NCBI RefSeq assembly: GCF_000223985.1 | Contig: NZ_AFWV01000010.1 | Coordinates: forward strand, 1-64,000 | Direction: 5' to 3' | Length of the DNA: 64,000 bases | From: Thiocapsa marina 5811 | Lineage (GTDB): Bacteria; Pseudomonadota; Gammaproteobacteria; Chromatiales; Chromatiaceae | Part shown: piece by piece, positions 24,586 through 60,734 of the stretch | How positions within the stretch are numbered: position 1 is the first letter of the stretch | Layout: each line of letters starts with the position of its first letter | Translations under genes and position numbers: made by a program | The notes under the pieces: model-generated | The model's input: only the letters and a program-made list of their open reading frames with translations | Told to the model about the DNA's origin: nothing | The model's database searches: none

Positions 24586-24669
24586 TAAACCGCGCATCCA
24601 CCAAGGGCGGGACGTTCCCAAGGCCGAAGTCAACATGAAAATCACGCATGTCGCTCTGGACGCGGTTTA
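24586..24669. repeat. stem-bounded intergenic element (copy a, type B)
   Basis: Ends TAAACCGCG (24586-24594) and CGCGGTTTA (24661-24669) are perfect inverted copies; length 84 bp. The interior end (TCGCTCTGGACGCGGTTTA) matches copies at 38274 and 41476. The right end is 5 bp before the TonB-family start codon. Confidence 0.8.
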
Positions 24670-24674
24670 GATCC

Positions 24675-25811
24675 ATGCCCATCCGCTCGTCCGATCCGCA
24701 GATTCCACGAGCGCTCGTCGCGACGCCCCGTCACGACTCATCGGGTCTCGTCTTCACGATGGCCCTACTGGCCGCAACGCTGCTCCATCTCGGTGTAATC
24801 ACCCTCGTCTCATTCGGGCCACCCCGACCCGAGGCGAGCGGCATTGCGGAGTCGGCGTTGGAGATCCTGATCCTGCGCGACGCCGGCCGGGGTGCGGCAG
24901 CCCCGGACGCGGCCCCCTCTCGAATCGATCGGTCGGGCGCATCCTCGAGCGGCAACGCCGTCTACGACGACGAGATCGCGACCATCTCGGACGACATCGA
25001 GGCGCCAGAGCCTCCGATGCCCATCCTCGATACCCGGACGGAAGCCCTCGAGGAGTCGCCTGCCGAGGCGAGTGCAGGTGCAGCGCCCGAGACCGACACA
25101 TCGGCCGATCGAGAGGCGACCTTAGCGGAGTCATCCCCGAGTCCACTTGACGCAGGCACAGTCGAACCGTCTCGCGAGCCGGTCGATGCCGAGGCCATGT
25201 CGCCGGCCTCGACAGAGTCAGTCGAGCCGTCTCCTCGGGACCTCGCGACTGTCGCACGATTGGAGCCTCCGCCCGAACCCGTACCCGATGCCGAACCCGA
25301 GCCGCTCCCGCCTCCCGACCCGATGGCCGCTCGGGACATGTCCGCTCGGGAAGCACCGGTCGACGCAGCCGCGATCCTCGCCAGCCGCGGCGAGGAAATC
25401 AATCGGCTCACCGCCAACCTCCAGGCCAAGACCGCCGCCTATGCGAGCCGGGTCCGGCGCAAGTCGGTGAGCGCGAGTACGCGGGAGTTTCGCTACGCCA
25501 GCTATCTCGGCGCCTGGGCACGCAAGGTCGAGCGCATCGGCAACCTCAATTATCCGCAAGCGGCCCGGGATCAACGCATGTTCGGCAGCCTGATCCTGCA
25601 TGTCGCCGTGCGCTCCGACGGAAGCGTGGAGCAGATTCGGGTCGTGCGCTCGTCCGGCTACGACCTGCTCGACGAGGCGGCCGTGCGGATCGTGGAGCTG
25701 GCGGCCCCTTACGCGCCCTTCCCGCCCGACATCGCCGCGGAAACGGACGTGCTCGATATCGTGCGGACCTGGCAGTTTTTGCGCGGCGGAGGGTTGGGTT
25801 GGGAGCAATAA
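24675..25811 (+). CDS. TonB-family energy transducer (TonB3-like)
   Basis: 378 residues from ATG 24675, directly after the repeat element. It has an N-terminal membrane anchor (FTMALLAATLLHLGVITLVSF), a long acidic Pro-rich periplasmic linker (about 60-230), a helical stretch and the TonB C-terminal domain. That domain includes YLGAWARKVERIGNLNYPQAARDQRMFGSL and DGSVEQIRVVRSSGYDLLDEAAVRIV. Its neighbours equal those of tonB3 in Pseudomonas aeruginosa, which is needed for twitching motility rather than iron uptake. No ExbBD is nearby. A start at 24648 inside the repeat is unlikely. Confidence 0.8.
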   Translation: MPIRSSDPQIPRALVATPRHDSSGLVFTMALLAATLLHLGVITLVSFGPPRPEASGIAESALEILILRDAGRGAAAPDAAPSRIDRSGASSSGNAVYDDEIATISDDIEAPEPPMPILDTRTEALEESPAEASAGAAPETDTSADREATLAESSPSPLDAGTVEPSREPVDAEAMSPASTESVEPSPRDLATVARLEPPPEPVPDAEPEPLPPPDPMAARDMSAREAPVDAAAILASRGEEINRLTANLQAKTAAYASRVRRKSVSASTREFRYASYLGAWARKVERIGNLNYPQAARDQRMFGSLILHVAVRSDGSVEQIRVVRSSGYDLLDEAAVRIVELAAPYAPFPPDIAAETDVLDIVRTWQFLRGGGLGWEQ

Positions 25812-25865
25812 GCAGGACAGTCGAGGCGGGGATCAGACACTGCGATAAAACGCCGCCCCTCGATG

Positions 25866-26282
25866 TCAGAGCAGCTTGCCTGCGGCGATGATCAACGCGG
25901 CGATGGTGGTGATAAAGCCAATCAACCACAGAAAATGGCGATCGTTGCGTTTGATCAGCTCGTCGAATCGACGGTCGAATTGCTCGAAGCGCTTGTCCAC
26001 CTGCTCGAAGCGTTTGTCGACCTGCTCGAAGCGCTTGTCCACCTGCTCGAAACGTTTGTCGACCTGCTCGAAACGCTTGTCGACCTGCTCGAAACGTCTT
26101 TCGACCTGCTCGAACCCTTGGCGCATCAGCTCGCGCTGATGCTTGAGCTCCTCCTCGACCCGCACCATTCGCTCGCGCAGCTCGATCTCGTAAACAGCGG
26201 GCGGCTTGCCGAGCGACACCTCGGCAAGCCACTCGCCGAGATGCTCCTTGATGAACGCGATATCTTCTTTGGCTAAGGCCAT
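25866..26282 (-). CDS. membrane-anchored coiled-coil protein with heptad tandem repeats
   Basis: 138 residues from ATG 26282, with GGGGAGG about 10 nt upstream. A short N-domain (MALAKEDIAFIKEHLGEWLAEV) is followed by a coiled coil built from seven-residue repeats (FEQVDKR) and a C-terminal membrane helix (HFLWLIGFITTIAALIIAAGKLL). It resembles DUF1640-type tail-anchored proteins. It interrupts the otherwise collinear gshB-pyrC' gene order on the opposite strand. Function unknown. Confidence 0.7.
   Translation of the reverse strand: MALAKEDIAFIKEHLGEWLAEVSLGKPPAVYEIELRERMVRVEEELKHQRELMRQGFEQVERRFEQVDKRFEQVDKRFEQVDKRFEQVDKRFEQVDKRFEQFDRRFDELIKRNDRHFLWLIGFITTIAALIIAAGKLL
25981..26106. repeat. 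21-bp tandem repeat inside coding sequence
   Basis: Six consecutive 21-bp units (unit type TGCTCGAAGCGCTTGTCCAC plus one base) that keep the reading frame and encode FEQVDKR heptads. Units differ mainly at wobble positions. Unit number can change by slippage without frameshift, shortening or lengthening the coiled coil. Confidence 0.85.
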
Positions 26283-26488
26283 CAGTCGAACCTCCCCGAG
26301 GCTTGGCTCCCGCACCGGCCGCATCGCAGATGCATTGAAGCCAACAGGAGAACGCCGACATCCCCTGTGGCTCGCGGACCCTCGAGCCCCTAAACACGAA
26401 TTGTTGCACAACCCTCACCGAGACATCCAGTAGCCTTAAGCCCATGCTCGGGCTTGCTTGAGATCTCCCCGACCGGGATACTAACACC

Positions 26489-32915: not shown

Positions 32916-34190
32916 ATGACCCGACGCCTCTATACGCTCCTGCTGCGCCTGCTGCTGCCGCTCGCGCTTCTTCGCCTCTATTGGCGCAGCCTCAAGTCCC
33001 CCGCCTATCGGCGACGGGTGCCGGAGCGACTTGCGCTCGGCCCCGCAGCTCCTGCAACGCAGATCTGGATCCATGCCGTCTCGGTCGGCGAGGTTCAGGC
33101 TGCCGAGCCTTTGATCCGGCGCATGATCGATCGCGACCCAGCCCTGTCCGTGCTAGTGACGACCACCACACCGACAGGCGCCGAGCGGCTGCGCGAGCGC
33201 TTCGGCGGCGGCGTGGCGCACCGCTACACCCCTTACGATCTTCCCGGAATCCTCGACCGCTTCCTGGACCGAACAACCCCGGCGCTGTTGATCGTCATGG
33301 AGACCGAGATCTGGCCCAACACCCTGGCGGCCTGCGCAACGCGCGGCATCCCGGTGATCCTGGCGAACGCCCGGCTCTCGGAACGCTCCGCAGGAGGCTA
33401 TCGACGGTTCGCGCGCCTCACCCGCGAGGCGCTGAGAGGCTTCGACCTCATCGCCGCCCAAGCGAAGGCGGACGCCGAGCGTTTCGTCTCATTAGGGGCG
33501 GATCCAGATCGGGTCCAGGTCACCGGCAGCATCAAGTTCGATCTCCGGCAACCGGCGAGCCTGGTCGATCGGGCCGAAGCCATGCGGCGCGCTTGGGGGG
33601 GGCAGCGTTCGGTCTGGGTCGCGGCCAGTACCCATGAGGGGGAAGACGGGCCTATCCTCACGGCCCACCAACAGATTCGAACGGTCGTGCCCGATGCCTT
33701 GCTGGTGCTGGTGCCGCGCCATCCCGAGCGGTTCGAACGCGTTGCCGAGCTGGTGACACGACAGGGTTTGACGCTCGCACGCCGCAGCCGACAGGAGCCC
33801 TGCACCCGGAGCACGTCGGTCTTTCTCGGCGACACCATGGGGGAGCTTCCGATCTTCCTCGCCGCGGCCGACGCGGCCTTCATGGGCGGCAGCCTGGTGC
33901 CGACCGGCGGTCACAACCTCCTGGAGGCGGCTGCAGCTGGCGTCCCCGTCGCGATCGGCCCGCACCACTTCAATTTTGCGGCCATTACGGAGCTGCTGTG
34001 CGCGGAAGAGGGCGCGATCGAGATCGCCGACGCCCAAGCACTGGCACGACTCATGATCTCCTGGCTGAGCGACGCCACCGAGCGTGCACGCATCGGCGAG
34101 AACGGCCGTCGCGTCGTCGAGTCGAATCGCGGGGCACTCGATCGGCTCGTGACGTTGATCGAAGCCCGCTTGCCGAAGACGCGAGACTAA
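32916..34190 (+). CDS. waaA: Kdo transferase WaaA
   Basis: 424 residues. An N-terminal membrane anchor (LLLRLLLPLALLRLYW) is followed by GT30 motifs: IWIHAVSVGEVQAAEPLI, VMETEIWPN, SIKFD, LVPRHPERF and MGGSLVPTGGHNLLEAAA. It adds Kdo to lipid A at the inner membrane. Complete. The stop TAA is the first base triplet of the repeat element at 34188. Confidence 0.93.
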   Translation: MTRRLYTLLLRLLLPLALLRLYWRSLKSPAYRRRVPERLALGPAAPATQIWIHAVSVGEVQAAEPLIRRMIDRDPALSVLVTTTTPTGAERLRERFGGGVAHRYTPYDLPGILDRFLDRTTPALLIVMETEIWPNTLAACATRGIPVILANARLSERSAGGYRRFARLTREALRGFDLIAAQAKADAERFVSLGADPDRVQVTGSIKFDLRQPASLVDRAEAMRRAWGGQRSVWVAASTHEGEDGPILTAHQQIRTVVPDALLVLVPRHPERFERVAELVTRQGLTLARRSRQEPCTRSTSVFLGDTMGELPIFLAAADAAFMGGSLVPTGGHNLLEAAAAGVPVAIGPHHFNFAAITELLCAEEGAIEIADAQALARLMISWLSDATERARIGENGRRVVESNRGALDRLVTLIEARLPKTRD

Positions 34191-34272
34191 ACCGCGCCGG
34201 CTCCGACAATCGTCGAGCCTGCCGAGGCCGATCCCATCCAATAACATCACAGACCGCGCAGGGCGCGGTTTA
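34188..34272. repeat. stem-bounded intergenic element (copy b, inverted type A)
   Basis: TAAACCGCGCC (34188-34198) and GGCGCGGTTTA (34262-34272) are perfect 11-bp inverted ends; length 85 bp. The element begins exactly on the waaA stop codon. The interior is the reverse complement of the 38166/41367 type (GGCCGATCCCATCCAATAACATC). Confidence 0.8.
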
Positions 34273-34341
34273 ATGTCGATCAACCGAGGGCGAGCGATGA
34301 TCGGGCCGCGGGAATGATCCGTGATCGACCGCCCCGGTGCA

Positions 34342-34929
34342 TCAATCCGCTGCCTTGAACATCGACCAAACCTCGCGGAACTGGGTATCGGTGGAGTCAC
34401 CGACCCACTCGAAGCCGACCGACTCGGTGCAGACGACTTGAGTCCCGGCGTGCCGCATGCGATCCAGCACGTTCTGTTTGAACGCGGCCCTGCGCGAGAT
34501 GATGGCATCGGCCGGAACAAACACCTGATACCCCCAACGCTGGAGCCCGGAGACGGTCTGGACGATGCAGATGTGCGCCTCCATCCCGACGACGATCAAC
34601 TGACGCCGGTCAGGATGGGCCGAGATGTTGCGCTCGAAACCGGGCGCGGTGCAGCAGGAAAAGGCGGTCTTCTCGGTCGGCTCCGCGCCTTCGGGCATAT
34701 TCTCGCGAATGCTCGCCAGGACCGGACCGAGCCCTTTGGAATTGTGCTGTGTCGCGATGACCGGGATCCCGAGGATCTTCGCGGCCGACACCAGCCGATT
34801 GATGTTCCCGACGACCAAATCCAGCTCGTCGGCAGGCATGGCATGCGCCAGACGTTCCTGGGCATCGATGATCAGGAGCTGGGAAAAGGCCCTCTGACAA
34901 AGCGGCATTTGCGCTTGATGGGTACTCAT
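34342..34929 (-). CDS. isochorismatase-family hydrolase (YcaC-like)
   Basis: 195 residues from ATG 34929, with GAGG 9 nt upstream. The cysteine-hydrolase triad is visible: Asp in LLIIDAQERL, Lys in EPTEKTAFSCC and Cys in VVGMEAHICIVQT. This fits the YcaC group, whose natural substrate is not firmly known. It is a single gene, converging toward waaA with a repeat element between. It appears intact. Confidence 0.85.
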   Translation of the reverse strand: MSTHQAQMPLCQRAFSQLLIIDAQERLAHAMPADELDLVVGNINRLVSAAKILGIPVIATQHNSKGLGPVLASIRENMPEGAEPTEKTAFSCCTAPGFERNISAHPDRRQLIVVGMEAHICIVQTVSGLQRWGYQVFVPADAIISRRAAFKQNVLDRMRHAGTQVVCTESVGFEWVGDSTDTQFREVWSMFKAAD

Positions 34930-35073
34930 GGCGTGTCCTCGCAACATTGTTATTTGGATCGCCGCTGGCCGAAATCAGCCGTGGCTCAGGGCAGTGTGCG
35001 TCAGTTTCCCGACGGGAATCAAGGAAAAAGCGGCATCGCATGCAGCCGCAATCGGGTCGAGACCCGCGCGAGA

Positions 35074-35409
35074 TCAGTAGACCGGCATCGCGGGATCCAG
35101 ATCACGCGCCCAGGCTGCAACACCGCCGTCGAGATTGACCGTGCGCGTAAAACCCTGCTGCTCCAGGAAGCGCGCGACCTGAAAACTGCGAATGCCGTGA
35201 TGACAGATCACGACGATCTCGCGACTCGGATCCAGCCGTGCCAATGCCCCCGGGATCTGCCCCATCGGGATGGAGACGGATCCCTCGATCCGACAGATCT
35301 CAAACTCCCACGGCTCTCGGACATCGAGCAAGACCGGCGGCTCGCCGTCCGCCGCCAACAACTGCGCAACCTCTCCAGGACCCATTCGACGCATCACCAG
35401 CCCTCGCAT
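35074..35409 (-). CDS. single-domain rhodanese-like sulfurtransferase
   Basis: 111 residues. Rhodanese blocks: VLLDVREPWEFEICRIEGSV, IPMGQIP, IVVICHHGIRS with the active-site Cys, and VNLDGGVAAWA. The GlpE-like loop CHHGIRS suggests a small thiosulfate or protein-persulfide transferase. Such genes are plentiful in sulfur oxidisers. A start at the second Met (MRRMGPGE) is also possible. Complete, cytoplasmic. Confidence 0.9.
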   Translation of the reverse strand: MRGLVMRRMGPGEVAQLLAADGEPPVLLDVREPWEFEICRIEGSVSIPMGQIPGALARLDPSREIVVICHHGIRSFQVARFLEQQGFTRTVNLDGGVAAWARDLDPAMPVY

Positions 35410-35521
35410 TCAGCCACGCCCGACGTGCATGCGTTTCCGAGGTCGACCGACCAAACCTCGACGAAAGCAGCAAGCCCCCGGCAAACGCACCACAATGGTT
35501 GATCCTTATCGTTCCGGTCTC

Positions 35522-35608
35522 CTGAACCGCGTCCACTGCAGCGCCTGTTGATTCAAAAGACATCGAGCCCTTACGCAAGCCCCGCATCACACACCGGACG
35601 CGGTTCAG
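35522..35608. repeat. stem-bounded intergenic element (copy c)
   Basis: CTGAACCGCGTCC (35522-35534) and GGACGCGGTTCAG (35596-35608) form a perfect 13-bp inverted pair; length 87 bp. An extra CGCGGTTCA (35609-35617) follows and ends on the pcm stop codon (minus strand), as if the end had been duplicated. Confidence 0.8.
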
Positions 35609-35614
35609 CGCGGT

Positions 35615-36280
35615 TCAGAACTCGAACTCGTTCGCCTCGGCGGCATTCTTCAAAGCAAGCGTCGAGGTCTCGAACAGCCCCTCTCGGCGAAAATCACGCT
35701 CGCCGACACGGGTCACGAGCGCGGCCTCCATCACCGGCTCCACCCCGAGGATGCAGAACAGACGTCCGCCCGGGGCCAATTGACCCTGAAGCAGCGGCAC
35801 AGCAGCCTCGGTGGGCATCGATCCGGTCACGGCGATGACATCGAAAGGTCCACCGTCGACAGGCTCGCTCAGCGCATCACCCGGGCGGATCTCGATCGAC
35901 CCGAGCCCCAGTTCGGCCAAGCGCACCCGCGCCTCGTCGGCCAGGTCGGTATCGATCTCCACCGCGATCACGCGCCCGCCCAGGCGGTCGAGACAGGCGC
36001 TGATGTAACCGGTCCCCGCGCCGATCTGCAGGACCCGCTCGCCGGGCTTCACGTCCAGTGCCTGGAGCATGCGCCCCACGACCTTCGGCGCCAGCATGCA
36101 GGAGTCCGCGCCGATCGGGATCTCGATATCGGCGTAGGCCAGGCCCTGGTAGGCGTCGGGCACGAACGCCTCGCGCCGAATCTCAGCCATCGCCTCGAGA
36201 ACCCGGTCGTCCAAGACGTCCCACGGGCGAATCTGCTGTTGGATCATGTTGAAACGCGCACGTTCGGCGGTGATTTCCAT
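35615..36280 (-). CDS. pcm: protein-L-isoaspartate O-methyltransferase
   Basis: 221 residues. Signature blocks: FNMIQQQIRPWDVLD, FVPDAYQGLAYADIEIPIG, the SAM motif VLQIGAGTGYISACLDRLGG and DVIAVTGSMPTEA. Pcm repairs isoaspartyl residues using SAM. The N-terminus (RPWDVLD) is the short proteobacterial variant. It sits between a repeat element and the antiporter gene, as a single gene. Confidence 0.9.
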   Translation of the reverse strand: MEITAERARFNMIQQQIRPWDVLDDRVLEAMAEIRREAFVPDAYQGLAYADIEIPIGADSCMLAPKVVGRMLQALDVKPGERVLQIGAGTGYISACLDRLGGRVIAVEIDTDLADEARVRLAELGLGSIEIRPGDALSEPVDGGPFDVIAVTGSMPTEAAVPLLQGQLAPGGRLFCILGVEPVMEAALVTRVGERDFRREGLFETSTLALKNAAEANEFEF

Positions 36281-36388
36281 CGGATGTCGAGTCCTCGTCT
36301 TCTTGTTCTGGGCGGCCGGAAAGCCTACTGAGTTTGGGCGGATCGGGCAACTTGGGATGGTGGTAAGCGGTGAGTGACACCCGCGGGT

Positions 36389-38089
36389 TTACTCGACCAC
36401 CTGCGCATAGCCCTCGCTGCGCACGCCCTGGAGCAGGGAGTCGACCTCGCCGGTGGAGATGCCGAGCATCTGCAGCGCTTCCGCCCCCAGGCGCAGGCTG
36501 CTCTCGATCGCCTCGGGGTAGGCCAGCGTCGCCCCGGCGCGAATAAGACTGCCGCAGGCCTCCAGGTCCCGTGCGCGGGCGATCACCGGCACCTTCGGGT
36601 AGGCGGTGCGGATATGCGAAACCGCCCGCAAGGCGGTCGGCCCGTGATCGATGGTCAGGATCACCAGGGCCGCCTTGTCCACTTGCGCGGCCTCCAGGAG
36701 CTCCACGTCGCCGATATCGCCGAAATAGACCGCGCGACCGTCCTGCTCGCCGCGCTCGACGTGGGCCGGGTTGGTGTCGAAGGCAATGAAGGGGATGTCG
36801 TTGGCCTCCAGGAGGGTCGCGACCGTATGACCGACCCGCCCGTAACCCGCAATGACAACCCGTTTCGTCGGACCATCCCCGGTGTCCGGATACTCGAAGG
36901 TCGGCGGGGCCGACGTTCGGTGCTCGAGTCGCCGCGCCGCAACATCGCCGATCCGCACCAGCAAGGGCGTCAGCAACATACTGACCGAGATCACGCTCAC
37001 CGCGATGACGAAGGTCGCGTCGTCGATGACACCGAGCACCTTGGCCGAGCCGAAGAGGACAAAGCCGAACTCCCCGCTCTGGGCCAGCATGAAGGCAACC
37101 CGTGTCGCCGTGCCGCGCGGCAGGCCGAACGCCACGCCGATCAACAAGAGCACGACCAGCTTGATGGCGAGGATCACGCCGACATGCTGAGCGAGCAACA
37201 GCGGCTGAGCCGCGATCGCCTCGAGGTCGATCGACATCCCGACGGCAACAAAAAAGAGGCTCATCAGCAACCCCTTGAAGGGCTCGATCTGGGCCTGGAT
37301 CTGGAAGCTGAAGCGCGAGGTCGAGAGCAGCATGCCCATCATGAAGCCGCCGAGCGCCATCGACAGGCCGGCCTCGTGCATTGCACCTGCCGCCAGAAAG
37401 ACCGCCAGCAGGGCGACGAGGGTAAATGCCTCGCGGTTGTGCTGGCGCAGCAAATATCTCAGCGCGATCGGGACCAGGTAACGCCCGAAGCCGACGACCA
37501 ATCCCACCATACCGGCGACGACGAGGATCTGCTGCCAGAAGGGGACATCCGAGGACAAGGTGCCGACATCGGAGAGGATCGGCACGATCGCAAGCAGCGG
37601 TACCACCGCCAAGTCCTGCATCAAGAGAACGGCAAAGGCGGCTGTCCCGTGGCGGGTCGCGATGTCGGCGCGCTCATGAAGGGTTTGCATCACCAAGGCC
37701 GTCGAGGAGAGCGCCAGGGTCAGCCCCATCAAGAGCGACGCCCGCCACGAATACTCGTAGAGCGAGATGTAGCCCGCCACCAGAAGGCCGGAGATCAGGA
37801 TCTGGGCCGAGCCCATCCCGAAGACCTCGCGACGGAGCGACCAGAGCCGCCGGGGCTTCATCTCCAGGCCGATCAAAAAGAGCAGCATGACCACGCCCAG
37901 CTCGGTGAAGTTGCGCACATCCTCGACTTGCGCCGTCACCGACGGGCCGGGCGAATGCGGCCCGACCACGATCCCCGCCACCAGCAGCCCCAGGATCGAA
38001 CCCAGCCCCAGATGCTTGAACAAGGCGACCGCGAGCGCCGCCACGGTGAGCAGCGCGATCGCCGAAAGGACAAAGCTGTTGAGCTCCAT
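36389..38089 (-). CDS. CPA2 cation:proton antiporter with RCK domain (KefB/C-like)
   Basis: 566 residues. Twelve or so membrane helices cover residues 1-385, with the CPA2 motifs LGLLVAGIVVGPHSPGP, LLFLIGLEMKPRRLW, TLALSSTALVMQTLHE and LAQSGEFGFVLFG. A cytosolic RCK_N/NAD-binding domain starts near 415 (RVVIAGYGRVGHTVATLLEA). It exchanges K+ or Na+ for H+, gated by nucleotide or glutathione adducts in Kef relatives. Encoded alone. The upstream region holds a dimer of the repeat element. Confidence 0.88.
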   Translation of the reverse strand: MELNSFVLSAIALLTVAALAVALFKHLGLGSILGLLVAGIVVGPHSPGPSVTAQVEDVRNFTELGVVMLLFLIGLEMKPRRLWSLRREVFGMGSAQILISGLLVAGYISLYEYSWRASLLMGLTLALSSTALVMQTLHERADIATRHGTAAFAVLLMQDLAVVPLLAIVPILSDVGTLSSDVPFWQQILVVAGMVGLVVGFGRYLVPIALRYLLRQHNREAFTLVALLAVFLAAGAMHEAGLSMALGGFMMGMLLSTSRFSFQIQAQIEPFKGLLMSLFFVAVGMSIDLEAIAAQPLLLAQHVGVILAIKLVVLLLIGVAFGLPRGTATRVAFMLAQSGEFGFVLFGSAKVLGVIDDATFVIAVSVISVSMLLTPLLVRIGDVAARRLEHRTSAPPTFEYPDTGDGPTKRVVIAGYGRVGHTVATLLEANDIPFIAFDTNPAHVERGEQDGRAVYFGDIGDVELLEAAQVDKAALVILTIDHGPTALRAVSHIRTAYPKVPVIARARDLEACGSLIRAGATLAYPEAIESSLRLGAEALQMLGISTGEVDSLLQGVRSEGYAQVVE

Positions 38090-38165
38090 GCCGCGACTCT
38101 ACCAAATTCCAAAGGGGTTGCATGCGAAGCCGGACATTCGCCCGACGCGGTATATCCTATTGCCT

Positions 38166-38252
38166 TAAAACCGCGCCTCGTGTGGTATGCGATGTTTTCG
38201 GACGGGATCGGCCCCGGTATTTTTGACGACCGCTGGAGCCAATGCGGTTTAA
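38166..38252. repeat. stem-bounded intergenic element (copy d1, type A)
   Basis: The ends TTAAAACCGCG and TGCGGTTTAA are inverted with one extra A and one mismatch. The interior GGGATCGGCCCCGG and GACGACCGC matches copy e1 at 41367. It forms a dimer with the next copy across a 21-bp A/T-rich linker (38253-38273). Confidence 0.75.
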
Positions 38253-38273
38253 GATATTAAAGAATTTATTATT

Positions 38274-38359
38274 CTAAACCGCGTTTCCGCTAAGGGCCGC
38301 GGATGCACCAAACGTCAAGCTCACTCGAAAGTGCGCATCTCGCTCTGGACGCGGTTTAG
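38274..38359. repeat. stem-bounded intergenic element (copy d2, type B)
   Basis: CTAAACCGCGT (38274-38284) and ACGCGGTTTAG (38349-38359), a perfect 11-bp inverted pair; length 86 bp. The interior CACTCGAAAGTGCGCATCTC is identical in copy e2. Confidence 0.8.
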
Positions 38360-38389
38360 GTCGGGACATCTCTCGAGAGACAGGACGCC

Positions 38390-39817
38390 ATGCCATCCAC
38401 TCAATCCGGGCGACCGAGGGTCGCCGTCGCCGGCGCAAGCGGCTTTATCGGCACCGCGGTCTGTCGCGCACTGACGGACGCCTTTTCGGTTCGCGCACTC
38501 ACCCGATCGCCCGCCCGGGCACAGACGCCCGACCCGGATCGGCGCATCTCCTGGCGCCATTGCGATCTCTTCTGTGCGCCCGATCTCGCCGCAGGACTCG
38601 CGGACTGCGATTACGCCATCTATCTGGTGCATTCGCTGGCGCCATCGTCGCGCCTGACGCAGGCCAATCCGCGCGATATGGACCTCATACTGGCCGACAA
38701 CTTCGCGCAGGCCGCGGCTGCCAACGGGGTCAAGCAGATCATCGTCGTCGGCGGCCTGATCCCGGACAGCTTCCGGATCTCGCCGCTCTTGTGGAGCCGG
38801 CGCGAGGTCGAGCTGGTGCTGGCCTCGCGCGGGACACCGGTCACGGCGCTGCGTGCCGGACTGGTCGTCGGCCCCGGCGGCTCGGCCCCGCGGCTGCTGG
38901 TCGATCTGGTCCGGCGCCTGCCGCTGCTCTTGCTGCCGCCGAGCGCCCGCTCGATGACGCGGCCCATCGCGCTTGACGATCTTGTACGGGCGGTACGCCA
39001 CTGCTTGGGACAACCCGAGACCTGTCGGGGCGCATACGACATCGGCGGTCCTGAGTGCTTGAGCTACGAAGAGATGCTGCGTCAAACCGCCGAGGTGCTC
39101 GGGCTTCGCAGACGCATCCTGACCCTGCCTTGGATGCCGCTCTGGCTGGCCTCGGCGACCGCGCGGTTTTTCAGCGGTGCGCCTTCGGCCGTGGTCGGTC
39201 CGGCGCTGGAGAGTCTGCCCCAAGACACGGTGATTCGCGACAATCCGGTGCAGCGCGCAATCGACCCGTCAGCGATCCCTTTCAGCGAGGCGCTGCGCGC
39301 CGCGCTCGACCGGACCGGCCGACACCTGCTGCCGAGCCCGCGTCAGCCCATCGAGGGTCAGAGCCGCGAGCTGATGCGGCGTGCGCGGCTGGTGCGTTCC
39401 ATCCAGCGGGTGATTCTGCCCCCCGGTCAGGATGCAGCCTGGGTCGCCGGCAACTATTTTCGCTGGCTCGGCGCCTGCTGTTGGCCCATGGTCTGCACGC
39501 ACATCGACGAAACGGGTCGATGCAGCGTCTACACGCGTTTCCCGCGCCTGCACCTGTTGACGCTCCAATGGCAAGCCGAGGAGAGCGGCCCGCAACGCCA
39601 GGTCTACGCCATCGTCGGCGGTCTTCTGAGTCGAGCGGACGGGCCCGGGCGCGCCCGCTTCGAGTTTCAGACCCTTCTGGATGATCGCTACACCATGGCG
39701 GCGATCCACGACTTCGCACCCGCCCTGCCCTGGTACGTCTATCTCTGGACTCAGGCGGTCGCACATCTCCTGGTCATGCGGCGTTATCAGCGGCGGCTCG
39801 CACGGTTGGCGCGGTGA
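38390..39817 (+). CDS. NAD(P)-binding SDR-type protein with DUF2867 C-terminus
   Basis: 475 residues. The N-terminal atypical SDR/NmrA-like Rossmann fold has VAVAGASGFIGTAVCRAL and a VVGG strand, with AIYLVHSL in place of the usual catalytic segment. Residues about 320-475 (YFRWLGACCWPMVCTHIDETGRCSVY...) match DUF2867. Such fusions occur in proteobacteria and their substrate is unknown. It starts 30 bp after the repeat dimer. It could act on a lipid or quinone-like molecule; no evidence here. Confidence 0.75.
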   Translation: MPSTQSGRPRVAVAGASGFIGTAVCRALTDAFSVRALTRSPARAQTPDPDRRISWRHCDLFCAPDLAAGLADCDYAIYLVHSLAPSSRLTQANPRDMDLILADNFAQAAAANGVKQIIVVGGLIPDSFRISPLLWSRREVELVLASRGTPVTALRAGLVVGPGGSAPRLLVDLVRRLPLLLLPPSARSMTRPIALDDLVRAVRHCLGQPETCRGAYDIGGPECLSYEEMLRQTAEVLGLRRRILTLPWMPLWLASATARFFSGAPSAVVGPALESLPQDTVIRDNPVQRAIDPSAIPFSEALRAALDRTGRHLLPSPRQPIEGQSRELMRRARLVRSIQRVILPPGQDAAWVAGNYFRWLGACCWPMVCTHIDETGRCSVYTRFPRLHLLTLQWQAEESGPQRQVYAIVGGLLSRADGPGRARFEFQTLLDDRYTMAAIHDFAPALPWYVYLWTQAVAHLLVMRRYQRRLARLAR

Positions 39818-39832
39818 GGCTCCTGCCTCTTA

Positions 39833-39918
39833 GCCGCCTGCCGCCTGCCGCCTGCCTCCTGCCTTTAGGCTCGAAACCGAAGCCGGGGGCTGGTGGCTGG
39901 TGGCTGGTGGCTGGTGGC
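39833..39918. repeat. two runs of 7-bp tandem repeats
   Basis: GCCGCCT occurs about three and a half times (39833-39860) and GGCTGGT four times (39888-39915), 27 bp apart, in the gap between two convergent genes. No T run follows, so they are not a classic terminator. They are prone to slippage. Confidence 0.7.
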
Positions 39919-39931
39919 CGAAGGCCGAAGG

Positions 39932-41266
39932 CTACCCCGGCAGATACGGCGTCAGCATCCCCCCGAGATCCACCCGTGCGCGCAGACGCCGGCACAACAT
40001 GAATGCACCCATTAACTTGCGGTGCAGGAACATGGTCTCGGGCGCAGGTACGGTGCTGAAGGCGCCCGAGTAAAACATCTCGCGACCGCGCGCATAGACA
40101 CGCTCGAAGAGGTCCGAGACACCGAAGTCGTAGTGGCCGGGGCTGCGCAGTGGCTCGCTGGACATGCGCAAGAGGTCGATGAGCGCGTTCACCTGCTCGC
40201 TCGGGTCGTTCGCGCCGACATACCCGAGATCGATCGAGGCGGCGCGCATCGCGCCGCGATCGTCGGCGAGCGCGGCACGGGCGAGACGCCGGTAACGTTC
40301 GATCAGATCGGACGAGACGGGGAGCGCCGCGCCGAAATCGAGCAGGACGATCCGCCGAGCCGCCGCATCATAGAGATAATTGCCGAAGTTCGGGTCCGAC
40401 TGGACGAGACCGAACTCGAAGAGCTCGCGCATGGACAGACGCGTCAATGCCGTCGCGGCGTGGTCGCGCTCTTCGCAGCTGAAGTCGCTGTCGGCCAAGC
40501 GGTCGACCGGGACACCCTCGGCGAAATCCATCGCCAAGACGCGTGTCGTGGAGAGGTCGCGATGCACGCGCGGGACGAAAAAGTCCGGATCTGCGCCGAC
40601 TCCTGCCCCGTACGCCTCGAGCGAATCCGCCTCCGCGCCATAGTCGGCCTCCCGGTGGAGCTGCCGGCGTGCGCCTTCCAGATAAGGCGTCAGATCCACG
40701 CCCGCCGGAGCCATCCCGAGGGTGCGCGCCAAAAAGGCAAGGTTGTCGATGTCGCTGTCGATGCTCTCGCGAACACCCGGAAACTGGATCTTGAGCGCAA
40801 GCCGACGCCCGTCGCGCGTCTCGGCCCGGTGCACCTGCCCGATCGAGGCGGAGGCTACGGGCGTGAACTCGAACCGCTTGAACCTCGCGTTCCAGCCCGG
40901 CCCGTATTCGCGCTCCAAGACACCGACGAGCTGGCTCATCGGCATGGGCTCGGCGCGCTCGCGCAAGGCGCTCATGATCTCTGCTGCCTCGGGCGTGAAG
41001 ATGTCCGAGCCATCCATGGACATGAGCTGCCCCATCTTCATGACGGCGCCGCGCATGCGCGCGAGCCGGTCGGTGAACCGGCGGGTGTGCTCGGGCGAAA
41101 GCCGGATCCGCGAGGGCTCGGCGCTGCGACGCGTCCGGGCAAGCTCCATCAGACCCTTCACGCCGATCCCGGCGGCGAGATCCCCGGTGGCACGCCCCAG
41201 GTGCCAAAGGCGACTCAGACGCGTGCTCGGGACGGCCATGCCGGGTCGGGTCGGTGTGCTGGACAT
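39932..41266 (-). CDS. AarF/ABC1/UbiB-family kinase-like protein
   Basis: 444 residues. Family marks: the K-x-G-Q motif in GAVMKMGQLMSMDG, the Ala-rich loop ASASIGQVHRAETRDG, KIQFPGVRESIDSDIDNL, catalytic QSDPNFGNYLYD and LLDFGAA. UbiB relatives act in ubiquinone biosynthesis as atypical kinases or ATPases. Bacterial paralogues of this shorter type without C-terminal membrane helices have no fixed function. Intact. The upstream region holds repeat dimer e. Confidence 0.85.
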   Translation of the reverse strand: MSSTPTRPGMAVPSTRLSRLWHLGRATGDLAAGIGVKGLMELARTRRSAEPSRIRLSPEHTRRFTDRLARMRGAVMKMGQLMSMDGSDIFTPEAAEIMSALRERAEPMPMSQLVGVLEREYGPGWNARFKRFEFTPVASASIGQVHRAETRDGRRLALKIQFPGVRESIDSDIDNLAFLARTLGMAPAGVDLTPYLEGARRQLHREADYGAEADSLEAYGAGVGADPDFFVPRVHRDLSTTRVLAMDFAEGVPVDRLADSDFSCEERDHAATALTRLSMRELFEFGLVQSDPNFGNYLYDAAARRIVLLDFGAALPVSSDLIERYRRLARAALADDRGAMRAASIDLGYVGANDPSEQVNALIDLLRMSSEPLRSPGHYDFGVSDLFERVYARGREMFYSGAFSTVPAPETMFLHRKLMGAFMLCRRLRARVDLGGMLTPYLPG

Positions 41267-41366
41267 TGGGTTTCCTCGTAAGAGAATCGGTGACGTCCGG
41301 ATCCTGTCCAGACCAAAGATTGGACATGGTATCGGGTTATCCGCACTGCAACGATGCGGAATCGCA

Positions 41367-41453: not shown

Positions 41454-41475
41454 GATATTAAAAAATCGACTATTT

Positions 41476-42464: not shown

Positions 42465-44336
42465 ATGGACACCCCCGACACGAGTCTCGGCTTCGGCCAG
42501 CTCGGCCTAGCCCCCGCCGTTGCAAAAGCGGTCGAGGACCTCGGTTACGAGACCCCGACGCCTGTTCAAAGCCAATGCATCCCGCATCTGCTCGCCGGAC
42601 GTGACCTGCTCGGTCAGGCCCAGACCGGCACCGGCAAGACGGCGGCCTTTGCCCTGCCCTTGCTCAGCCGCGTCGATCCGACGCAGCGCGGCCCTCAGAT
42701 CCTGGTTCTGACCCCGACACGCGAGCTTGCGCTGCAGGTCGCCGAGGCATTCCAAGGCTATGCCCAGCATCTGAAGGGCTTTCTCGTGCTGCCTATCTAC
42801 GGCGGACAGGGTTACGGCCTACAGCTCAGCCAACTGCGCCGCAACCCGCAGGTCGTCGTCGGCACGCCCGGGCGCGTCATGGACCATCTCAAGCGCGGCA
42901 CGCTCGCACTCGACGTGCTCAAAACGCTCGTCCTGGACGAGGCCGACGAGATGCTCAACATGGGCTTCGCGGAGGATATCGACTGGATCTTCGAGCAGAC
43001 CCCGCCCGGACGCCAGGTCGCGCTCTTCTCCGCCACCATGCCCGCGGGGATCCGCCGGGTCGCCCAGACGCGGCTGTCGGATCCGGTCGAGATCCGCGTC
43101 AAGGCGGACTCCGAGACGGTCGACACCATCGACCAGCACCACTGCGTCGTCACCCGGTTCCACAAGCTCGATGTGCTGACCCGCATCCTGGAGCTCGAGC
43201 CCTTCGACGGCATGCTCGTCTTCGTGCGCACCAAGCATGCAACCGTGGAGCTCGCCGACAAGCTGAAGGCACACGGTTTCGCCGCCGAGCCGCTGAACGG
43301 CGACATGAGCCAGGAGATGCGCGAGCGTACCGTCGAGCGCCTCAAGCAGGGACATCTGGACATCTTGGTTGCGACCGACGTGGCCGCGCGCGGACTGGAT
43401 GTGGAACGGCTCAGCCATGTCGTGAACTACGACATCCCGACCGACCCCTCGGCCTATGTTCACCGGATCGGGCGGACCGGACGCGCCGGTCGCGCCGGTC
43501 GCGCGATCCTGCTGGTGGAGCCGCGCGAGCGCGGACTGCTGCGTGCGATCGAGCGCACCATCCGACGCAGCGTTCCGGCGATGGAGCCGCCCTCGGCCTC
43601 GCAGTTGAGCGAGTCGCGGATCGACCGCTTCACGGCGGAGCTGCGCAAGACCCTCACCGAGCAGGATCTGGACTTCTTCTACCGCTTGGTGGCGCGGCTC
43701 GCCACCGAGCAAGAGCTGGAGATGATGGACATCGCCGCGGCGCTGGCCTATCTGACCCAGCGCGAGCGTCCGCTCGATGTCCAAGCCGATCTGCCGCGCC
43801 CGGCGGCGACGCGGCCCGAGCGCCCGGAGCGCAGTCCGCGGAGCGAAGGTCGCGACGAAAGACGTCCTCGCGCCCCCCGCGACGGCGAGCGCGGCACGGC
43901 GCCCCGGCGCGAAGGGGCCCGCGAAGACAGTCGCGACCGCCCGCGTGCCCAGGGGCGAGGATCCGAGGGCCTCACCAGCTATCGGATCGAGGTCGGCCAC
44001 CAACACGGCGCCACCCCGCGTGAAATCGTCGGCGCCATCGCCAACGAGTCCGGACTGGAAGGCCGCTATATCGGCCGGATCGACATCCGAGACGATCACT
44101 CGCTGGTCGATCTGCCGGAAGGCATGCCCCGCGAGATCTTCAATCATCTGAAGCGCGTCTACGTCCGCGGCCAGGCGTTGCGGATCTCGCTTGCGGACCC
44201 GGCGGCGGGCGGCACGCGGCGCGGCGGCGCGGAAAACGCCGGCGGCGCTCGCCCCGATCAACCGACCTACGAGCGTAAGCCTCGGGAGGCCGGATTCCAT
44301 CAGGAGCGTCGGCGCAAACGAACGGACCCCAGCTGA
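42465..44336 (+). CDS. deaD: DEAD-box RNA helicase DeaD/CsdA
   Basis: 623 residues from ATG 42465, with GAGG 9 nt upstream. Helicase motifs: Q motif, AQTGTGKTAAF, PTRELALQVAE, GTPGRVMDH, DEADEML, SATMP, TDVAARGLDVE and HRIGRTGRAGR. An Arg/Glu-rich linker leads to a DbpA/CsdA-type RNA-binding domain (YRIEVGHQHGATPREIVGAI...) and a basic tail. It unwinds structured RNA in ribosome assembly and at low temperature. The stop codon TGA lies within the left arm of the repeat element at 44333. Confidence 0.93.
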   Translation: MDTPDTSLGFGQLGLAPAVAKAVEDLGYETPTPVQSQCIPHLLAGRDLLGQAQTGTGKTAAFALPLLSRVDPTQRGPQILVLTPTRELALQVAEAFQGYAQHLKGFLVLPIYGGQGYGLQLSQLRRNPQVVVGTPGRVMDHLKRGTLALDVLKTLVLDEADEMLNMGFAEDIDWIFEQTPPGRQVALFSATMPAGIRRVAQTRLSDPVEIRVKADSETVDTIDQHHCVVTRFHKLDVLTRILELEPFDGMLVFVRTKHATVELADKLKAHGFAAEPLNGDMSQEMRERTVERLKQGHLDILVATDVAARGLDVERLSHVVNYDIPTDPSAYVHRIGRTGRAGRAGRAILLVEPRERGLLRAIERTIRRSVPAMEPPSASQLSESRIDRFTAELRKTLTEQDLDFFYRLVARLATEQELEMMDIAAALAYLTQRERPLDVQADLPRPAATRPERPERSPRSEGRDERRPRAPRDGERGTAPRREGAREDSRDRPRAQGRGSEGLTSYRIEVGHQHGATPREIVGAIANESGLEGRYIGRIDIRDDHSLVDLPEGMPREIFNHLKRVYVRGQALRISLADPAAGGTRRGGAENAGGARPDQPTYERKPREAGFHQERRRKRTDPS

Positions 44337-44420
44337 ACCGCGTCCCGGGCCGGGCTCGAGGCTTGAGTCCGGTGCGGACATTCGAGTATCGACTCGGACT
44401 TTGAGTCGACGCGGGTTCAG
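44333..44420. repeat. stem-bounded intergenic element (copy f)
   Basis: CTGAACCGCGTC (44333-44344) pairs with GACGCGGGTTCAG (44408-44420) with one bulged G; length 88 bp. TGA of deaD lies at 44334-44336 within the left arm. The interior is unlike the A and B types. Confidence 0.75.
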
Positions 44421-44607
44421 AGATTAAAGGGAAAAGGTCAAAGGCGAAAGGGATTGGATTGTCGGGAAGGGAACACGGGGGCGGAGGATCGGGGACATTC
44501 GGGGTGCCGCACCGCCCCCTTCGGCCCGTGATCGTGGGATTTGATTGGTGGCGTTATTCTTGCTGAGCCACTCAATGTTCTTCCTCGGTCGCAATAGGTC
44601 CCCCAAG

Positions 44608-45483
44608 ATGCTTCAACGACTCGCAGCCGCGCTCACGCGTGGCGATCTGATTCCCTATCTCGGTCCCGGCGCGCTCGCCGGCGTGGTGGACACCGCCAGC
44701 GGCGAGCCCATACCGGCCGACAGCGACAGCCTCATCCTCGCCATGAACGGCGGCAAGCCTATGTCACCACGCCTCATGTGGGAATTTCCACGTGCGGCCA
44801 TGGATGTGGAGCTCAAGCGCGGTCGCAGCGCAGTCAATCGCTTTCTGGACACCACCTACGGCCAGCGCACCTGGACGCGCGCGCCTCTGCACGACTGGCT
44901 GAAGGCGCTGCATCCGCGCTACGTCATCGATGTCAATCGCGATACCCAGCTGCAGGACTCCTACGCGGGCGTCCCGCACACCCTGGTGCGCGGTATCGCG
45001 CGCATCGCCGGCACCGACTATCGCTTTCGGCTCGACCACTACGACGGGGCACACTACCGACAGGTCGAGCTCGAAGAGGTCGACCAGCGGCTTCCCGTGC
45101 TCTTCAAGCCGATGGGCAGCCCGCGGCCGGACGCGACCTACATCGCCTCGGATGCGGATTTCGTCGACTACCTGACCGAGCTGATGGGCGGATTCGGGAT
45201 CCCTGCGTTTCTCAAGACCTATCGGCAGGAACGGCAGTACCTCTTTCTGGGGCTGCGCCTGCTGCGCGACACCGAGCGCATGGTGATGTCGGATTTGATC
45301 TACGGGGCTGGAACACCGGCCGGTTGGGCGCTGATCCCGGATCCGACGGACAAGGAGCGGCGGTTTTGCGAGAGCAAGGGGGTAGAGGTGATCGAGGCGG
45401 ATATTCCGGATCTCCTTGCCGCGGGCGGGCTCTGCGATGCGGTCGGGGAGTTGATTCCGGCCACGCACGAGATCGGTTGCTGA
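44608..45483 (+). CDS. SIR2-like domain protein
   Basis: 291 residues from ATG 44608; a longer frame reaches 44545. The N-terminus MLQRLAAALTRGDLIPYLGPGAL resembles the nucleotide loop of SIR2-like proteins, where G-A-G is usual. YVIDVNRDTQLQDSY stands where T-T-N-x-D is found. SIR2-like domains bind NAD; some act as NADases in defence, others are deacylases. No zinc Cys cluster is seen. The partner is unknown. It lies between two repeat elements; its stop TGA abuts the next one. Confidence 0.55.
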   Translation: MLQRLAAALTRGDLIPYLGPGALAGVVDTASGEPIPADSDSLILAMNGGKPMSPRLMWEFPRAAMDVELKRGRSAVNRFLDTTYGQRTWTRAPLHDWLKALHPRYVIDVNRDTQLQDSYAGVPHTLVRGIARIAGTDYRFRLDHYDGAHYRQVELEEVDQRLPVLFKPMGSPRPDATYIASDADFVDYLTELMGGFGIPAFLKTYRQERQYLFLGLRLLRDTERMVMSDLIYGAGTPAGWALIPDPTDKERRFCESKGVEVIEADIPDLLAAGGLCDAVGELIPATHEIGC

Positions 45484-45486
45484 ACC

Positions 45487-45569
45487 GAACCGCGTCTGAC
45501 GAACCACGCGCCGTCTTCGGGCTGGATCGAGAGGGTCCGGGTCAACCGACGTCGGCGGTGACGCGGTTC
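45487..45569. repeat. stem-bounded intergenic element (copy g)
   Basis: GAACCGCGTC (45487-45496) and GACGCGGTTC (45560-45569), a perfect 10-bp inverted pair; length 83 bp. TGAACC (45481-45486), starting on the upstream stop codon, repeats the first bases, like the duplicated end at copy c. Confidence 0.75.
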
Positions 45570-45657
45570 AGGATGGGAAAAACGGGAATGAGGGAAAGAC
45601 GCGGGAAAACCCTTCCGCGCAATCACCTCGGCTCGTCATGCGCCGGGGTACGGCAGG

Positions 45658-46353
45658 TCAGGTGTCGGCGTCGGGATCGATGCCCAGGGCACGTAGTCGT
45701 GCGGCGAGACGCTCCGCGCGTTCGTGCTCCTGCTGCGCCAGGGTTGCTTGCTCTTGCGCCCGAGCGGTCGCGTGATCGGCGCGCCGCGCCAATTCGATCG
45801 AGGTTAGAAAGGAACGACCGTTCGGACCAAAGATCTCCAGTGTCTCGGGCGTGAGCGCAAAGCGGATTCCGAGCCGCGGGCTGACCCAGCCGTTGATGTG
45901 GCTGATCGGGCGGAGCCGCTCGCCTTGACGGATCCACAACTCGAGACGGTTGGTGCCGGGGTCGTAGAGGTAATACTCCTCGACGCCGTAGAGCTCGTAG
46001 TAGGCCAGTTTATCGGCCATCTCCTTGAGGCTGTTGGCGGGCGACAGGATCTCGAAGGCGACCTGCGGCGCCACCCCGCCCTCTTCCCATTGCTTGTAGC
46101 AGCCGCGTCGGCCCTTGGGCCGCCCGAAGACAACCATGACATCCGGTGCGACGGGGCCGGAGACGCGGCGATCCGCAACCGGATACCAAAGCAGATCGCC
46201 GGCGACAAAGACGTCCGGCCGATCGGCGAAGAGGATCTCCAGGTTTTCCTTGATCTTGACGATCCAGTCGAACTGCTCCGTGTTCTCCGCCATCGGCTGT
46301 CCATCGCTCTCGGGGTAGGGATCGTCCGGATCGAAATAGGCGAGCGGGTTCAC
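45658..46353 (-). CDS. Uma2-family (DUF820) PD-(D/E)XK protein
   Basis: 231 residues. Uma2 core: [61 protein letters not shown] and [20 protein letters not shown]-terminal coiled coil rich in Gln/Ala/Glu follows. Catalytic Asp/Glu residues of the nuclease fold are kept (PDVMVV, FEILS). Such genes are multicopy in cyanobacteria and some Chromatiaceae, with unknown biology. Its ATG overlaps the purE stop by 4 bp, an unusual partner for purine genes. Confidence 0.8.
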
Positions 46354-59759: not shown

Positions 59760-59775
59760 GCGGAGTGCACAAGCG

Positions 59776-60270
59776 ATGAAGCTCAGGCTGCTGCCCCACC
59801 CCATTCTCACTCCGGTCTTGACCCTGATCTGGCTTCTGCTGGTCAACAGCCTGTCGCCGGGGCAAATCCTCTTGGGTCTTCTCCTGGGATGGGCGATTCC
59901 GGTCTTTACGCTGCGCTTCTGGCCGGAGCGGGTCAGGATCCACAAGCCACTGACCTTGATGCGATTCTTTGCGCTCGTCATGTACGACATCCTGATCGCC
60001 AACCTCACCGTCGCCGCACTGATCCTGGGCGGTCCGAAGCATGTCAAGCCCGCCTTCGTGCGCGTGCCGCTCGCCTTGCGCACGGATCTCGGGATCAGCC
60101 TGCTCGCCAATACGGTCTCGTTGACCCCGGGCACCGTCTCGGCCTGGCTCAGCCCGGATCGCAGCCATCTGGTCGTGCATGGTTTGAAGGTCGGCGATCC
60201 CGACGCCCTGATCGCGGAGATCAAGCGCCGCTACGAGGCCCCGATCAAAGAGGTCTTCGAACCATGTTGA
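59776..60270 (+). CDS. mrpE: Na+/H+ antiporter subunit MrpE
   Basis: 164 residues from ATG 59776, with GGAG 10-13 nt upstream. Two N-terminal membrane helices (LTLIWLLLVNSLSPGQILLG, LLLGWAIPVFTLRF), then MRFFALVMYDILIANL and LLANTVSLTPGTVSAWLS, the MrpE signature, and a small cytosolic domain. Its stop overlaps the mrpF start by 7 bp. Confidence 0.92.
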   Translation: MKLRLLPHPILTPVLTLIWLLLVNSLSPGQILLGLLLGWAIPVFTLRFWPERVRIHKPLTLMRFFALVMYDILIANLTVAALILGGPKHVKPAFVRVPLALRTDLGISLLANTVSLTPGTVSAWLSPDRSHLVVHGLKVGDPDALIAEIKRRYEAPIKEVFEPC

Positions 60271-60533
60271 ACATCGCCGTCGCCATCGCGTTCGCACTGG
60301 TCTCCGGGGCGCTTTTCCTGAGCCTGTGGCGTCTGCTCAGAGGGCCGGACAAGCCCGACCGCATCCTGGCGCTCGACACCCTCTACATCAATACGATCGC
60401 TTTGCTGGTCCTGCTGGGGATCCACTTAAGCAGCTCGCTGTACTTCGAGGCTGCACTGCTGATCGCCATGATGGGTTTTGTCGGCACCGTGGCACTCTGC
60501 AAGTATCTCCTGCGCGGCGATATCATCGAGTGA
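60264..60533 (+). CDS. mrpF: Na+/H+ antiporter subunit MrpF
   Basis: 89 residues from ATG 60264. Three membrane helices and the family core RLLRGPDKPDRILALDTLYINTIALLVLLGI. Normal length. Its stop codon is the left edge of the repeat dimer that separates it from mrpG, whereas all other genes of this operon overlap or nearly touch. Confidence 0.92.
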   Translation: MLNIAVAIAFALVSGALFLSLWRLLRGPDKPDRILALDTLYINTIALLVLLGIHLSSSLYFEAALLIAMMGFVGTVALCKYLLRGDIIE

Positions 60534-60624
60534 TGAAAGCGCGTCTTTTGGTGGACTTTTGTAATATTCGAGGGTTTGCGAGCGTCGTGGGCATCTGCGG
60601 ATGTCGGAGCCGACGCGCTTTCAT
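60533..60624. repeat. stem-bounded intergenic element (copy h1)
   Basis: ATGAAAGCGCGTC (60533-60545) and GACGCGCTTTCAT (60612-60624), a perfect 13-bp inverted pair; length 92 bp. The outer stem differs from the CCGCG copies by a compensated change (C-G to G-C). Starts on the last base of the mrpF stop. Confidence 0.85.
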
Positions 60625-60646
60625 GATTTTAAATTTTTGTTATTTC

Positions 60647-60734
60647 TTCAATCGCGTCGACTCCGGACCTTATGGAATCCACGTGGATATGATTCGGCAC
60701 ACCCTCTACTGATCACTGCGAGGACGCGATTGAA
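60647..60734. repeat. stem-bounded intergenic element (copy h2)
   Basis: TTCAATCGCGTC (60647-60658) and GACGCGATTGAA (60723-60734), a perfect 12-bp inverted pair; length 88 bp. The variable pair is T-A here. The last base is the A of the mrpG start codon, so the right arm covers the ribosome-binding region. Confidence 0.85.

Follow-up and report, generated by a model that had tools for sequence, protein, structure and literature searches.

The window analysed here, a stretch of 64,000 nt from contig NZ_AFWV01000010.1 of Thiocapsa marina 5811, carries eleven copies of a short repeat, all of them found at the positions named in an initial annotation of this DNA. They belong to a family of ~87-bp units that occurs in Thiocapsa and some other Chromatiaceae, and within each unit the complementarity of the two ends is kept by compensatory change. 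We favour, with slightly better than even confidence, the reading that these units form a REPIN-like non-autonomous mobile element and that the pairing of their ends is what retains the older copies at gene ends. The eleven elements are far beyond chance: in a 452-kb sample, consisting of the window and 20 other stretches of the genome mostly picked around pattern matches, there are 266 perfect inverted pairs of 10-mers with an outer length of 80–89, whereas the adjoining bins contain 44 and 42. The strict pattern AACCGCGYC-N52..72-GRCGCGGTT matches the 5.59-Mb genome 350 times, and the reversed pattern, used as a control, has no match. Only three of the eleven window elements fit the strict pattern.

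A consensus scan of the sample gave 174 candidates, from which a score and length filter (80–92 bp) kept 118 and dropped 56. These 118 units, to which the counts per unit given below refer, include eight of the eleven window elements. Since 69 of them fit the strict pattern, the whole genome may hold about 600 units, a fair guess rather than a count. When the units are aligned in one orientation, 12-bp ends (consensus YTRAACCGCGYC) are common to them and the interior shows a weak consensus; there are two main types, A (ends GCC/GGC) and B (ends GTC/GAC). Pairing of the ends is seen in 101 units at position 12 and then in 20 at position 13, where 23.6 are expected. At position 11 it is seen in 110 units (59.8 expected), as T-A in 64 and C-G in 46, with 8 mismatched, while position 3 reads A-T in 85, G-C in 20 and A.C or G.T in 10. 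The stem position at which the initial annotation had noted C-G, G-C and T-A is matched by position 6 (C-G 102, T-A 7, A-T 2, G-C 1, the others unpaired). Its remark that the total length is almost constant also holds, with unit lengths in the sample peaking at 86–87 while the interiors drift, and the three copies that it had listed as imperfect are those at 38166, 41475 and 44333.

Because covariation counts in one genome could reflect subfamilies, the pairing was tested at orthologous sites. The first test used ten sites and the species tree; the second used fourteen sites in up to eight species (5 to 8 per site, with 5 at site 7110 and 6 at sites 45485 and 7146) and, for each site, a tree built from the interiors only. 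The tree simulations make simple assumptions, with independent columns and 70 or 75% transitions. The 34187 site, G109 at 2249, G111 at 7146 (where another unit had been picked) and all outgroup rows were left out of both tests; here and below, G000 is the genome of T. marina 5811 itself and the other G numbers are relatives. At the fourteen sites the ends show 61 changes in 336 columns and the interiors 611 in 884, a ratio of 0.26 that is biased towards conserved ends, the orthologous sets having been picked from units intact in this genome so that unrecognisably decayed units were missed. If only the six sites for which all eight species were recovered are counted, the values are 16/144 and 255/377 (ratio 0.16). 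The ten-site test likewise gave a ratio of about one quarter. Complementary double changes were found at six pairs in the ten-site test, against 1.5 expected, and no simulation out of 1000 was as high. In the fourteen-site test compensated double changes were found at nine pairs (null 2.8 ± 1.4) and unpaired cells numbered 55 (92 ± 9 simulated), values that none of 1000 simulations reached. The claim that the ends differ between copies yet remain complementary through compensatory change is thus borne out, also at orthologous sites, and its survival there indicates that end pairing is under constraint.

Individual sites illustrate the process. At L015:10720 the ends read TTAAATCGCG/CGCGATTTAA in G000, G112 and G114, and in G109 with one mismatch, while they read TTGAACCGCG/CGCGGTTCAA in G111 and G117. 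At L008:2166 both ends are CTGAACCGCGTC in G000 and G112, and CTAAACCGCGTT in G111, G113 and G117. Position 12 of the 35522 unit runs through C-G, C.A and T-A, the mismatch being an intermediate state, and all eight species keep the rare end variant TTGAATTGCGTC at L016:12522, with no mismatch in six of them. Further units were collected with a sequence profile that applied no pairing filter, the profile itself having been trained on units chosen partly for pairing. Among 67 such units from relatives 39 of 804 cells are mismatched (shuffled 105.8 ± 5.3), and among 29 from other genera 17 of 348 (shuffled 35.6 ± 3.0), the shuffles ignoring relatedness.

Units also occur in inverted pairs. Neighbouring units are inverted with their heads outward in 38 of 40 cases, and 36 of the 40 gaps measure 19–22 bp. 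Over 39 pairs of units, the ends of the same unit show 27 and 30 mismatches, whereas the two outer ends of a pair show 81, of which 33 fall at position 11. Given that ends match within the unit and not between the outer ends, the pairing unit is the 87-bp element and not the composite.

That the units are mobile is evident from precise empty sites in the three regions compared with relatives. The initial annotation had set selection on a folded structure against a MITE (miniature inverted-repeat transposable element); this was a false choice, the elements being both mobile and patchily distributed. G109, G112 and G116 have a clean empty site in place of the pair at 38166, while G111 and G117 hold a pair elsewhere in the same gap, interrupted in G117. 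G109, G112, G113 and G116 are empty at 34187, where G111 holds a B-A pair, G000 one A unit and G117 one B unit; these states, a pair in one species and single units of differing type in others, fit the deletion of one half between ends that are direct repeats. Single copies can be pairs minus one half. The pair at 41367 is shared with G109 and appears as a fused single unit in G111. At L015:9677 four species have a pair, two have a single A unit, and G112 and G113 are empty. The junctions at 34187 and L015:9677 fit a duplication of TA inside a TAA stop codon, and from these two sites a TA duplication on insertion is probable. The orthologue of the 44333 unit in G117 is itself interrupted by an insertion. 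As a separate observation, the G117 orthologues of 38166 and 44333 (L042) contain, inside the old elements, larger insertions with TTCCCGGAAA-type ends, and similar stretches adjoin old elements in G111, G112 and G114, possibly representing another mobile family.

The position of the units relative to genes, which were called with a home-made codon-usage caller, is equally specific. Counted over 78 blocks of units, there are 86 sides with a gene 3′ end facing them, and 33 of the 86 lie at exactly −4, a single sharp peak that does not depend on the fine calibration of the caller. An overlap of exactly 4 bases means that positions 2–4 of the repeat are the stop codon, which is therefore supplied by the repeat end; indeed, 218 of the 236 end triplets are stop codons (TAA 166, TGA 48, TAG 4). 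Altogether, 57 of the 78 blocks have a facing gene 3′ end no more than 60 bases away. All copies had been described as lying between genes, which is right in that, of the 107 with context, only 2 share more than 20 bases with a predicted gene, but many do overlap a stop codon by exactly 4. The supply of stop codons is not unique to this family, since in the portions of the source that deal with them the termini of GTAG repetitive extragenic palindromic (REP) sequences are also reported to provide stop codons (PMC3733652).

In the reading that we favour, the basic unit is of ~87 bp, with two 12-bp ends (consensus YTRAACCGCGYC) that need to pair with each other and an interior of near-fixed length that drifts freely. 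What is missing from the precise empty sites is mostly two inverted units joined by a 19–22 bp AT-rich linker (~195 bp), and single copies can arise when one half goes missing. The data show mobility, inverted pairing, docking at stop codons, complementarity of the ends preserved by compensation within each unit, and a near-constant length; the TA duplication (at two sites), the recognition of the hairpin and the benefit to the host are inferred from them. Insertion would favour stop codons, or survive best at them, probably via TA duplication; the docked end, reading Y-TAA-ACC, would give a stop codon without harm to the protein. A putative mobiliser, or a processing step, probably recognises the hairpin of each unit in single-stranded DNA. 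In the older single copies at gene 3′ ends the hairpin may also serve the host, most simply as a structure at the 3′ end of the mRNA, and their position makes a function at the transcript level plausible. A use to the host is argued for by the fact that some old single units have been kept with paired ends across the divergence of eight species.

Several observations weigh against this reading. What suggests a benefit to the host is conservation of the units, and retention is not universal: of six further sites that were fetched, 17158 and 18723 proved decayed, deleted or unrecovered in most species and were excluded from the test. The outgroup orthologue of L015:14813 in G118, left out of the counts, has three mismatched end pairs, and stem position 12 covaries little (101 units paired, 96.9 expected). 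Judged by eye among the relatives, the interior haplotypes at L008:2166 and L019:2143 seem not to follow the species tree, which makes recombination between Thiocapsa species likely. The empty-site states were likewise read by eye and concern few sites; the empty site of 38166 reads GTTCG, without TA, and G109, one of the four empty versions of 34187, reads TCA and not TAA. Finally, no mobiliser or autonomous transposon with the element ends was seen among the loci of Y1 and DDE_3 transposases examined.

The family offers an unusually clean case in which copies of a mobile repeat, once common to several species, keep their paired ends by compensation while the interior drifts, and the old question of whether REP-like repeats are selfish relics or have a host function becomes testable site by site. 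Docking at stop codons would also explain how hundreds of insertions can be carried at little cost. A bolder version, which we regard as doubtful, would make the family a new class of two-level hairpin mobile element, with paired-end halves, recognition of folded DNA by a putative enzyme, stop-codon docking that spares the proteins and many copies maintained by the host; if true, a lineage-specific gene-end system would have been made from a selfish element.

The search for the mobiliser covered two transposase families. Y1 matches occur in 18 of the 20 genomes checked, eight of the genes being in the genome of T. marina 5811. We examined 37 of the 168 matches as loci, including all eight of this genome, and none is flanked by units on both sides; a Y1 transposase of the REP-associated (RAYT) type was consequently rejected as the mobiliser. 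Six of the 37 loci hold a unit, the closest being in G107, ~160 bases beyond a split Y1 gene, where 60 kb contain 17 units. Similarly, none of 30 loci examined out of 43 matches to the IS630-type transposase (DDE_3) was seen to be bounded by element ends, and G116, in which the strict pattern has 375 matches, has no DDE_3 match. No long composite, with a gene between two units, was evident among the partial matches and unit distances in the loci examined. Two side observations belong here. In G107 (L108, 1–620, at the start of contig C9) an IS630-type transposase gene ends 33 bases upstream of a unit; the contig end cuts off its other side, and the locus is a possible lead to the mobiliser. 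In the genome of T. marina 5811 (L032; contig C62, 146073–149354) a Y1/RAYT-like gene is flanked by several GTAGGGTGG inverted repeats, which together with this gene are probably the true REP/RAYT system of the genome; GTAGGATGGGTAGAGCG palindromes, related to GTAGGGTGG, adjoin elements in G117.

Four other explanations were weighed, each of which accounts for part of the data and fails elsewhere. The units could be a genuine RNA element that is independent of mobility: selection would act on the transcript, in which a hairpin of the 3′ untranslated region would serve stability, processing or termination, as would suit the closeness of most blocks to a gene 3′ end; we hold this to be possible, with some doubt. 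At orthologous sites read in the transcript sense, distinct mismatch states are more often G.U (16) than A.C (7), and the paired units of this genome show the same tendency (15 against 4 at positions 2–12). Two sites account for nine of the 16 G.U states, however, four sites added later give one G.U and two A.C, single units give 7 and 7, and in the sense of the element itself the counts are 24 G.U and 27 A.C at positions 2–12, or 27 and 45 with position 1 included. Strand-specific structure, as judged by G.U against A.C, is therefore without support in the element sense, and the hint in the transcript sense failed to replicate. A common interior fold was not found, the folds differing between sites; the unit at L019:2249–2334 and its orthologues, with further interior hairpins that change on both sides between species and end mismatches all of the G.U type, is an exception. 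The near-fixed length around a free interior would also be unexpected in a plain hairpin loop. A transcription terminator is ruled out, as a 12-bp stem with a loop of ~62 bases does not qualify, and a scan of 34000–46000 with the terminator consensus gave no excess (5 matches, 7.0 in shuffles), one of the five weak matches (35565–35582, minus strand) falling inside the 35522 unit. The initial annotation had proposed looking for an existing Rfam entry, and none matches in the window at gathering scores; with E up to 1, the region 34000–46000 yields just two microRNA models, below gathering scores, at 39831–39913, outside the elements. This stretch, repetitive and palindromic (GCCGCCTGCC / GGCTGGTGGCTGG), lies between two genes, and its weak match is probably due to chance. 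Of the proposed selection on a folded RNA or a DNA cruciform, what stands is that end pairing is constrained, while a folded RNA is not borne out by the mismatch types, the folds or Rfam.

Explanations at the DNA level fare differently. An ordinary MITE, with terminal inverted repeats on which a DDE transposase of TA target (IS630/Tc1-mariner-like) acts and with apparent covariation that stems only from end subfamilies, would account for mobility, patchiness, high copy number, the two junctions that fit TA duplication and the unit next to the IS630-type gene in G107. It is unlikely in view of the outer ends of the inserted pairs, which in 33 of 39 cases do not match at position 11 as the two ends of one unit do, of the compensated changes at sites common to several species, and of the DDE_3 results, including the lack of any DDE_3 match in G116. 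Less probable still is a double-stranded DNA site, at which a protein bound to the two ends, about seven helical turns from each other, holds the DNA in a loop, thereby keeping the spacing and the matching ends: it agrees with the near-fixed length over a drifting interior and with mismatches at positions 2–12 that show no strand preference, but if two tolerated variants were bound independently no covariation would be expected, contrary to what is seen at position 11, and the 452-kb sample has no comparable second length peak one turn away. Pairing might also arise without any selection, if one end is copied onto the other by template switching or if conversion from other copies overwrites the ends. 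Correction of imperfect inverted repeats by template switching is an established mutation mechanism, and many copies exist; we nevertheless consider this the most improbable of the four, because pairing stops sharply past position 12, intermediate mismatches are seen (as in the 35522 unit), the end sequence is itself conserved, about four-fold over the interior, and the rare variant TTGAATTGCGTC has persisted at L016:12522 in eight species without being overwritten.

Among known systems the closest kind is that of the REPINs. In the sections of the literature that describe them, REPINs have conserved inverted ends and a spacer critical for its length and hairpin capacity, and compensatory changes are common (PMC3116915). 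For that reason the earlier statement that no described family shows this pattern was too strong. Among the titles listed in searches of open-licence PMC papers, none is on this family. As far as the same passages go, REPINs and REP dimers (bacterial interspersed mosaic elements, BIMEs) resemble the units in being high-copy, mobile and intergenic, with inverted ends, a spacer of kept length and compensatory change, and in forming inverted dimers, leaving single units as remnants, lying at gene 3′ ends and having termini that give stop codons (PMC3116915; PMC3733652). A REP is defined there as a short palindrome tagged with GTAG, or by a CGTC tag with an 8–9 bp stem and a 4–5 base loop, and CGTC REPs likewise lack an association with the Y1 transposase (PMC3733652). 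Set against these partial descriptions, the units have neither a 20–40 bp palindrome at each end nor a GTAG tag; CGTC is present in B-type ends, but without the 8–9 bp stem and 4–5 base loop; there is no link to the Y1 genes examined; and each half of an inverted pair is a paired-end unit of ~87 bp. By eye, the 118-unit alignment shows only a 2–3 bp hairpin near one end and no REP-type palindrome in the 12-bp ends. A canonical REP is rejected on account of the missing inner palindrome, GTAG tag and Y1 association in the loci examined. TA is the target of ERIC and Correia elements and probably the target here too, fitting at 34187 and L015:9677 and failing at 38166. The MIRU repeats of mycobacteria are short and overlap the stops of flanking genes, as the units do, but they are tandem direct repeats with small reading frames and are not known to have a compensated end stem. 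Integron attC sites are short, with a variable interior, and are recognised as folded single strands; the ends described here do not fit attC core sites, nor do the elements form arrays of gene cassettes. So far as the source treats them, ERIC, Correia and similar MITEs are short, non-coding and intergenic, with terminal inverted repeats and up to hundreds of copies (PMC10969869), and the units largely resemble them in this. The units differ from them, as described there, in that no parent transposon was found among the Y1 and DDE_3 loci examined and in that the end sequence varies but is compensated; the outer ends of an inserted pair are similar, yet at position 11 they mostly mismatch, as noted above. 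The family is thus a well-delimited new form within the REPIN/MITE kind, not one without precedent.

The strict pattern is found in 38 of 210 genomes of the order, with dozens or hundreds of matches only in some Thiocapsa and a few other genera. Seven Thiocapsa relatives have 246, 647, 318, 161, 221, 375 and 521 matches, and three others have 1, 0 and 0. In a scan of all species, Thiocapsa, Thiobaca and a Chromatiaceae metagenome record are the only ones with several matches per organism among the best 80 of 108 stretches; single matches come from Lamprocystis and from many unrelated taxa, in the latter with scattered lengths. Among the best 80 of 102 viral stretches the pattern occurs once per contig, often with a total length of 86 or 89–90 against the 79–81 typical here, and these matches are probably unrelated.

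The bounds of the units in the window are those of the best alignment. A single B-type unit with a partly decayed stem occupies 24585–24670 (minus strand). The single A-type unit at 34187–34273 (minus strand) gives the TAA stop (34188–34190) to the gene ending at 34190. An old single unit at 35522–35608 (minus strand), present in all eight crown species, lies 6 bases away from the stop of the gene 35615–36280 (minus strand). Two inverted pairs follow: 38166–38252 (unit A, imperfect, plus strand) and 38274–38359 (unit B, minus strand) with a 21-bp AT-rich linker at 38253–38273, and 41367–41453 (unit A, plus strand) and 41475–41561 (unit B, minus strand, stem imperfect) with a 21-bp AT-rich linker at 41454–41474. 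The old single unit at 44333–44420 (plus strand), whose right end has one extra base here, gives the TGA stop (44334–44336) to the gene ending at 44336, so that this stop, like that at 34190, falls in the first four bases of an element. Another old single unit (45485–45571, plus strand) lies 1 base past the stop of the gene 44545–45483; its ends are preserved across six species, whereas the mean interior identity is just 66%. The last pair has variant ends, GAAAGCGCGTC/GACGCGCTTTC in the unit at 60534–60623 (plus strand) and CAATCGCGTC/GACGCGATTG in that at 60647–60734 (minus strand), with a 23-bp AT-rich linker at 60624–60646. Its first unit begins right behind the stop codon (60531–60533) of the gene ending at 60533, and the last base of its second unit is the first base of the predicted gene 60734–61087.

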